Source: Natrinema sp. SYSU A 869 (GTDB lineage: Archaea; Halobacteriota; Halobacteria; Halobacteriales; Natrialbaceae). From it: DNA of 64,000 nucleotides. Shown here in pieces: positions 55,893-56,699 of this stretch (the stretch's first letter is position 1; each line of letters opens with the position of its first letter). The DNA is taken from NCBI RefSeq assembly GCF_019879105.1, contig NZ_CP082249.1:3472001-3536000 (forward strand), written 5' to 3'. The notes under the pieces were generated by a model. That model had not been told where the DNA came from and did not search any database. It saw only the letters and a program-made list of their open reading frames with translations. The position numbers and the translations under genes were made by a program.

Positions 55893-56076
55893 AGTGGACA
55901 CCAATGTACGTAGTTGTCTTGTAATGCCCAAATCAGTACATCGACTTAAGCGTATCGAACGGGTGCGTGGGGTCAACTCACGTACGGCAGTCGATTCGAA
56001 ACCTTCAATTGGTATGGGGAGCAACGAATGAGTGGAGACAACGTGGCGACGGACGCCACGGATGAAAGCAAAACCA

Positions 56077-56151
56077 GGGTTGGTGGTCTAGTCTGGTTAC
56101 GACACCTCCTTGACATGGAGGAGGCCGGCAGTTCAAATCTGCTCCAACCCA
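56077..56151 (+). tRNA. tRNA-Val (anticodon GAC)
   Basis: A 75-base tRNA: acceptor GGGTTGG pairs with CCAACCC, discriminator A, D-arm TGGTCTAGTCTGGTTACGAC, anticodon stem CCTCC/GGAGG around TTGACAT (anticodon GAC) and T-arm GCAGTTCAAATCTGC. It reads GUC and GUU. The CCA end is not encoded. It is divergent from trpD and is followed by the hairpin array made of copies of its own 3' end. Confidence 0.95.
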
Positions 56152-56494
56152 TTTCTGACGAACTAATACGACGAACAGAGTGAGGAGTACGTTCGTCAGA
56201 AATTGTACTGAGAGATTTGAACGAGACGAGTCGCGGTGCCCGAACGAAGTGAGGGCGACCGTCTCGGCGTGGTTCAAATCTGCTCCAACCCACTATTTCT
56301 GTCGCGAGCAAATCCGCGAGCGACGAAATCGTCATGGTGGACAGATTTGAATCAGGGAGCAGCTTTGCTGCGACCGTGGTTCAAATCTGCTCGAACCCAT
56401 TCCTGACGGAACGACAATCGAGGAGCGTGTGGGGCACTGCCCAGTCAATGTCGAACGGTGAAACCGTGAGCGAAGCGAGTCGTTCCATCAGAAA
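56131..56494. repeat. tRNA-Val 3'-end copies and hairpins
   Basis: The last 21 bases of tRNA-Val (56131-56151) recur exactly at 56272-56292 and with one change at 56379-56399. Each copy is the right arm of a hairpin whose left arm is an antisense fragment: AGATTTGAAC at 56213-56222 and CAGATTTGAA at 56342-56351. Other hairpins starting TTTCTG or TTCCTG follow each copy: 56152-56163 with 56191-56202 (12 perfect pairs), 56293-56328, and 56400-56414 with 56480-56494. No gene is present. Confidence 0.8.
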
Positions 56495-56699
56495 TTGTTA
56501 TGGAACATTCGAACCAGGTTCCGCGAGTTTCGGTCCTCATTCGAGTCTGGTACTACTCGCAAGCGACTTCGTTTGCGACTCGCTCCGATCCGTGTTCGAG
56601 TAACGTGTTAGTGCCCACTGTCAGCACTGATTTCACAGACGAGAGCACCCACGGTCGACGGACCACCGGCCGCGTCGTCGCCCCACCGACCGGATTGAA
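56495..56699. other. intergenic stretch, no gene seen
   Basis: About 200 bases (550 counting the preceding hairpin array) before the convergent lipoprotein gene. Open frames are Ser/Thr-rich shadows. A possible further diverged hairpin remnant lies near 56499-56525 but cannot be aligned with confidence. Confidence 0.35.

Follow-up and report, generated by a model that had tools for sequence, protein, structure and literature searches.

Modular palindrome arrays carrying tRNA 3'-end copies downstream of haloarchaeal tRNA genes

The tRNA-Val(GAC) gene of Natrinema sp. SYSU A 869 is followed by a run of hairpins in which the 3' end of the tRNA itself recurs. What placed these copies there is the question that the locus raises. 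An earlier note on this DNA offered two answers: a record of repeated integration and excision at the tRNA, or a structured RNA read through from it. The window referred to throughout is the whole stretch of DNA that was analysed, 64,000 nucleotides of contig NZ_CP082249.1 (positions 3,472,001 to 3,536,000, assembly GCF_019879105.1).

Here we describe the array, its relatives behind other tRNA genes and the explanations that may account for them. We tentatively regard it, with a little less than even confidence, as one case of tRNA-anchored modular DNA palindrome arrays that would extend across the haloarchaea and would owe their formation to recombination or insertion events at tRNA 3' ends. 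This is a class-wide repeat system with a clear anatomy and is apparently undescribed. No description of hairpin arrays at tRNA ends was found in the consulted parts of the open-access literature, to which the search was confined.

Anatomy of the array behind tRNA-Val(GAC)

The last 21 nt of the tRNA are denoted X, the arms of the trailer hairpin H1 are denoted T and T', and an antisense copy of the T-loop is denoted X'. The array then reads X1 T-T' X' core X2 T-T' X' core X3 T-T' (decayed). It consists of two good modules and one decayed module, the third reaching to about 56560 when read by eye (Table 1). The two further downstream occurrences of the 21-base tRNA end that the earlier note had pointed out are confirmed, as are the hairpins alternating with them, which start with TTTCTG or TTCCTG. 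Its claim that every sense copy pairs with an upstream antisense copy stands for the presence of the antisense copies and not for their extent. The antisense copies are limited to the T-loop plus a portion of the T-stem and leave out the acceptor strand, so that each sense copy is paired over only about half of its length. The degenerate copies of module 3 are comparable to a 17/21 copy, ATTCGAGTCTGTCCCAACCCA, in another tRNA-Val array (L101).

Table 1. Features of the tRNA-Val(GAC) array, in positions of the window
Feature	Position	Strand	Details
tRNA-Val(GAC)	56077..56151	+	ARAGORN; Rfam RF00005, 60.2 bits
X1, master copy	56131-56151		last 21 nt of tRNA-Val(GAC), GTTCAAATCTGCTCCAACCCA
Module 1 trailer hairpin H1, long type	56151..56203	+	arms 56151-56163 / 56191-56203, 13 bp perfect
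Module 1 antisense T-loop copy X'	56214..56222	-	GATTTGAAC
Module 1 core, type A	56223..56271	+	GAGACGAGTCGC...GACCGTCTCGGCGTG
X2, exact tRNA-Val 3'-end copy	56272..56292	+	21/21
Module 2 trailer hairpin, short type	about 56293..56331	+	CTATTTCTGTCGCGAGC...GCGACGAAAT
Module 2 antisense T-loop copy X'	56344..56352	-	GATTTGAAT
Module 2 core, type B	56353..56378	+	CAGGGAG...CGACCGTG
X3, tRNA-Val 3'-end copy	56379..56399	+	20/21 (one mismatch)
Module 3 (decayed) trailer hairpin	56400..56494	+	arms TTCCTGACGGAACGAC and GTCGTTCCATCAGAAA
Module 3 (decayed), degenerate copies	56495..56560	+	antisense ATTCGAACCAG, sense ATTCGAGTCTGG; read by eye

The predicted fold energy of the 544-nt stretch is -221.8 kcal/mol; 100 dinucleotide-shuffled sequences gave -182.7 +/- 6.2 (z = -6.3). 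When all 64 kb of the window were scanned, this was the sole direct-repeat cluster of its kind, bar tandem repeats at 21.7 and 38.6 kb, and two further inverted pairs were found at the score used. An Rfam search of the array region returned no family except the tRNA itself. Orthologous tRNA-Val genes also have trailer hairpins, with different arm sequences, and the short-type hairpin is found directly 3' of tRNA-Val in other species. On the minus strand an ORF antisense to the tRNA (56005-56277, reads VGADLNCRPPPCQGGVV) could easily be mis-annotated as a protein.

Distribution among tRNA genes and genomes

Across five haloarchaeal genomes, 72/156 tRNA genes have, in the 300 nt that follow them, another copy (at least 16/21) of their own 3' end. 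The counts are 18/46 in the genome of the window, where 46 of 51 tRNAs remained once repeats of the same gene and unreadable entries were dropped, and 12/29 (same genus), 17/31 (same family), 10/21 and 15/29 (same order) in the others, where only the tRNAs fetched are taken in. Five other genomes of the phylum (G061-G065), termed non-haloarchaeal only from their shared phylum and different order, gave 1/70, and the one copy is a plain fragment with no hairpin modules. Upstream of the tRNA genes the figure is 3/147, the named cases being tandemly repeated tRNA-Gly or tRNA-Asp genes. Foreign tRNA 3' ends match at 0-3% of the sites in the haloarchaeal genomes. These two controls exclude chance or a BLAST artefact.

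Searched against its own genome by BLAST, the array matches regions downstream of other tRNAs, in each of which the 3' end of the adjacent tRNA recurs. Hairpins of the form GATTTGAA-N20-60-GTTCAAATC occur eleven times in this 5.67-Mb genome, and 11/11 lie 44-230 nt downstream of a tRNA gene (for one of them, the intron-containing tRNA-Trp, the distance was read from locus coordinates). The reversed pattern is found 0 times. Prevalence rests on this result and on the 72/156 count. The generic loop motif GARCGAAGYGAGY is less telling: 8/24 of its main-chromosome copies in this genome are behind tRNAs, and its 28 copies in all do not greatly exceed the 20 of the reversed control. Unlike the T-loop hairpins, it is therefore not specific. 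A hairpin motif common to all haloarchaeal intergenic DNA was rejected on the same figures.

A related pattern was found in at least 120 stretches across GTDB species genomes, and 73 of the 80 stretches listed by name are haloarchaea by title. Among the matches listed, 101/127 are on the same strand as a tRNA and within 600 nt of its 3' end, which is not a prevalence estimate because it includes loci chosen by the T-loop hairpin pattern (L098-L217); the same applies to the figures below on copy identity, position and tracking, antisense arms, H1 stems, G-U to A-C ratios, freshness, core types and core dispersal. A further 8/127 of the listed matches are tRNA-linked on the opposite strand. Most of the remainder are chance matches in bacteria, contig ends or displaced arrays. 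Two of the 101 same-strand cases among the matches listed are non-haloarchaeal: in one the match overlaps a tRNA-Met (L124), and the other is L139. The latter (L139:5208-5386) is a single module-like X'-core-X unit at tRNA-Ala(GGC) of the unclassified archaeon BMS3Abin16, outside the named haloarchaea.

According to the earlier note, similar arrays lacking tRNA-derived sequence behind many unrelated tRNA and protein genes would have spoken against its reading. Arrays do follow many unrelated tRNAs; each has sequence of its own tRNA, and none was seen behind protein genes. In the genome of the window the whole tRNA-Asp(GTC) and tRNA-Gly(GCC) genes are tandemly doubled (L075, L063), with an array downstream of each copy.

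Copies and modules compared across loci

The sense copies follow their own tRNA closely. Their identity is 0.83-0.99 at every position, including the acceptor strand, which the hairpin leaves unpaired. Where the tRNA departs from the isoacceptor majority, its own base is in the copy at 105/109 positions (69 loci; tRNAs differing from the majority at up to three positions). This restricted count, 105:4:0, is preferred to a broader one of 148:5:1 that mixed tRNA-Met kinds. In the units aligned the edges of the copy are constant, from the T-loop G to the discriminator base. The distance from the tRNA to the start of the first copy is 19-183 nt (median 102), and module lengths vary. At 71 loci the tRNA-proximal copy matches the tRNA better than the second at 35, equally at 29 and worse at 7.

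An antisense arm is present in 127/155 units. Over the T-loop this copy is almost complete; outward from it, pairing declines through 0.83, 0.65, 0.53 and 0.44 to near chance. One array of the genome of the window, at tRNA-Ser(CGA) (L013 / L082), looks inverted as a block: it opens with a full antisense copy (16/16), and a degenerate sense copy follows.

The hairpin cores are shared among tRNAs. Types A and B are each found behind 18 isoacceptors and type C behind 8, with long and short H1 alike. Among 209 modules, 43 have a B core, 33 an A core and 12 a C core, and 95 belong to none of the types. Close core matches number 58 at another tRNA of another genome vs 24 at the same tRNA of another genome, a comparison in which other-tRNA pairs are far more numerous to begin with. 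The H1 segments are less shared than the cores, with 7 close neighbours at another tRNA of another genome vs 21 at the same tRNA. Away from tRNAs the cores A, B and C are found in 6/69 cases, several of them at contig ends or in displaced arrays.

The modules are also permuted, as comparisons between species or between paralogous tRNAs indicate. The tRNA-Val arrays read long+A/short+B in the window, short+B/long+A in L101, long+B/short+A in L117 and short+B/long+C in L144. Two modules found behind tRNA-Ala stand in one order in some genomes and in the reverse order in others. In one genome (G047) the tRNA-Val(GAC) and tRNA-Val(CAC) loci are 96% identical after X, and the CAC locus has one extra X-bounded module in front. 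Cores are flipped relative to X in the eight opposite-strand, tRNA-linked cases among the matches listed. No clean filled and empty ortholog pair was found at tRNA-Val, where the downstream gene could be aligned in only some genomes. Sharing, permutation and flipping, together with the freshness of the tRNA-proximal copy, indicate that X is the joint at which modules would be gained, lost and rearranged, the array being freshest beside the tRNA. As far as sequence comparison can tell, this is good evidence for modular recombination at tRNA 3' ends, and modules appear to have been swapped between genes and species.

Proposed origin, alternatives and known systems

The module plan that we propose runs from the trailer hairpin H1 through the antisense T-loop/T-stem copy and the hairpin core to X, which extends from the T-loop to the discriminator base. 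Modules would be added, lost and exchanged through recombination or insertion at the tRNA 3' end, and every new module would leave one more copy of that end. Recombination among the X copies would keep them matched to the tRNA. The antisense arms may arise when a template switch within the hairpin copies the adjacent sense arm, starting at the loop and moving outward; this would produce the observed fading of complementarity. The likeliest agents are candidate tyrosine integrases that use the same tRNA ends and might act in trans on the gene-free hairpin modules. These enzymes are suspected because the joint is shared and because Pyrococcus XerA, according to a review (PMC8371274), binds stem-loop att sites with lower affinity.

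If this account is true, about half of the tRNA genes in an archaeal class hold a readable history of recombination, at the sites where viruses and plasmids enter genomes. The arrays would then be a natural assay for which integrases act where, and would explain the joint evolution of tRNA 3' ends and their neighbours. For annotators there would be a warning: tRNA-derived repeats, spurious antisense ORFs and false att sites would be a systematic occurrence in haloarchaeal genomes.

A more specific proposal, which we consider unlikely, is a shufflon- or integron-like system on tRNA genes. In this scheme GTTCAAATC would be the crossover site and the hairpin modules gene-free cassettes. A tyrosine recombinase of host or viral origin (XerA or a pleolipovirus-type integrase) would insert, invert and exchange them in trans, possibly giving viruses alternative targets beside the tRNA. 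As in integron attC arrays and shufflons, imperfect hairpins stand in tandem, a joint starting with GTT is repeated, and modules are permuted and some flipped. The attC core sites are RYYYAAC...GTTRRRY. The arms here read GATTTGAAC...GTTCAAATC, and the joint GTTCAAA does not fit GTTRRRY. Unlike integrons, the arrays are without gene cassettes. The integron integrase model TIGR02249 exceeded its cut-off in 0/41 genomes and likewise in 0/14 control genomes, a search that had no positive control. An integron attC array was rejected on two defining features, the integrase (with that reservation) and the core site.

Host replication and repair might have produced the arrays with no mobile module or recombinase, which also seems improbable. 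Forks stalled at tRNA 3' ends would switch template and so produce both inverted and direct copies, unequal crossing-over and gene conversion would do the rest, and cores would spread by ectopic conversion via the common T-loop. The fading antisense arms and the lack of a G-U bias (see below) fit template switching, the tracking of the tRNA by X fits conversion, and no virus or plasmid carrier was found. Against this, the same cores are behind 8 to 18 isoacceptors in many genera, and the constant edges of the copies suit a defined joint better than random switching.

A functional RNA element would have the hairpins transcribed with the tRNA and serving termination, 3' processing by RNase Z or control of maturation. 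The strong fold, the start of the hairpins at the tRNA 3' end and the pyrimidine-rich trailer agree with such a role. So do the H1 arms, which vary in sequence yet stay complementary: complementarity was found in 116/171 units vs 20/172 shuffles, with 108 different arm sequences among the 116. Upkeep of an RNA helix would, however, give more G-U than A-C mispairs. The G-U to A-C counts are 18:28 in H1 (104 non-redundant stems) and 72:77 in the X arms (positions -4 to 7 taken together), as against 72:0 in the acceptor and T-stems of the tRNAs when acceptor stems with more than one odd pair are omitted; unfiltered acceptor stems alone give 14:5. Since the counts in the arrays are near equal, the RNA of neither strand is favoured. 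The exception is two core-side positions of H2 (69:0 and 29:0), which we attribute to an inherited core consensus but which could be RNA selection. The acceptor part of X is unpaired yet faithfully copied, 84/156 haloarchaeal tRNAs are without a copy, and at four sites a provirus or integrase gene parts the array from its tRNA. The fold to which the earlier note drew attention is real; the arms do not look maintained as RNA, and the palindromes are probably DNA-level features. We consider an RNA function quite improbable.

The scars of repeated virus or plasmid integration and excision, which would have left 3'-end fragments, make an equally poor candidate. X has the size and edges of tRNA att cores, and the proviruses with tyrosine integrases at these tRNAs leave a 3'-end copy at their far end. 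For Haloquadratum, one account (PMC3119063) reports both partial tRNA copies that proviruses left behind and deletion mediated by repeats. In the genome of the window, tRNA-Pro(TGG) is separated from its array by a pleolipovirus-like provirus of about 16 kb (L097, G000:C3:1953800-1972800). The provirus has a tyrosine integrase (Pfam phage integrase domains) that adjoins the far 3'-end copy, and one of its proteins is 39-41% identical to pleolipovirus VP4. A second element, similar in size and also with a tyrosine integrase, is found at tRNA-Arg(TCT) (L427, G000:C3:2009800-2028400), where the far copy is at 2011672, with the integrase gene before it and the array after it. No far 3'-end copy was found at tRNA-Pro(GGG), unlike at Pro(TGG) and Arg(TCT). 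At two loci of other genomes (L209, L217) an integrase gene ends just before the array. About 1.3 kb past the far att copy of L427 there is a further array-like unit, which suggests nested events.

At four sites, then, a provirus or integrase gene stands between tRNA and array, so the array is not a scar of that integration and is older than it. As these loci are read here, viruses integrate into the 3' end of the tRNA itself, upstream of the array, which would stay with the chromosome. The arrays are a chromosomal feature separate from real integration, which uses the tRNA copy. Scars would also be expected to be bare X copies, whereas most units have an antisense T-loop arm, and cores are common to different tRNAs. 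A scan of a viral collection gave two matches to modules, both unrelated and chance-like, and module B had no match in 72,556 plasmids; a virus or plasmid source of the modules was rejected on these scans. Of the integration record proposed by the earlier note, two parts survive: the tRNA 3' end is the joint at which modules vary in number, kind and order, and real proviruses integrate at the same end. The remainder does not, in that the modules are gene-free hairpin pairs, mostly of 65-180 nt, and att scars leave the antisense arms and shared cores unexplained. The attL/attR repeats of archaeal tyrosine integrases (PMC8371274) share with the arrays the tRNA 3'-end repeat, its edges and the tRNAs used. 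Unlike attL/attR, the arrays have short hairpins and no integrase or other gene between the repeats, and they remain on the far side of real proviruses.

Dispersed palindromic repeats (REP/BIME, MITE, PATE) were rejected, as 11/11 places in the genome of the window are next to tRNAs and the cores are rarely found elsewhere. Casposon-type insertion was considered only because X-module-X arrays would result from repeated insertion with target duplication; it would involve a Cas1-like integrase, terminal inverted repeats and duplication of the tRNA 3' end as the target. Haloarchaeal PATEs, SMRs and MITEs are described as mobile repeats that have palindromes near their ends or repeats at them and that often lie within other mobile elements (PMC3119063). 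Like them the modules are small, palindromic, transposase-free and of similar size; unlike them the arrays sit behind tRNA genes and carry local tRNA sequence. Arrays behind tRNAs are not described in the consulted part of that Haloquadratum account of PATEs, SMRs and provirus-left tRNA copies.

The nearest published likeness is the tyrT/tyrV (rttR/tpr) region of E. coli (NC_000913). There, too, tRNA 3'-end copies repeat downstream of the gene, and the terminal 19 nt recur exactly, 178 nt apart. That region is one tRNA locus with direct repeats in 178-nt units, whereas the haloarchaeal arrays are found at about half of the tRNAs examined in five genomes. Each module of these arrays has two hairpins, antisense copies are present and different tRNAs have modules in common, a contrast in which tyrV was compared for direct repeats only. 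The long repeat unit of constant length seen at tyrT is not found in the haloarchaeal arrays, in which module lengths vary.

Elsewhere in the window, at 1100-1183, a long loop separates the arms of a perfect 17-bp palindrome, CTATAGTAGCCACTGAA. Downstream of the tRNA-Leu(TAG) array of the same genome there is a similar sequence.
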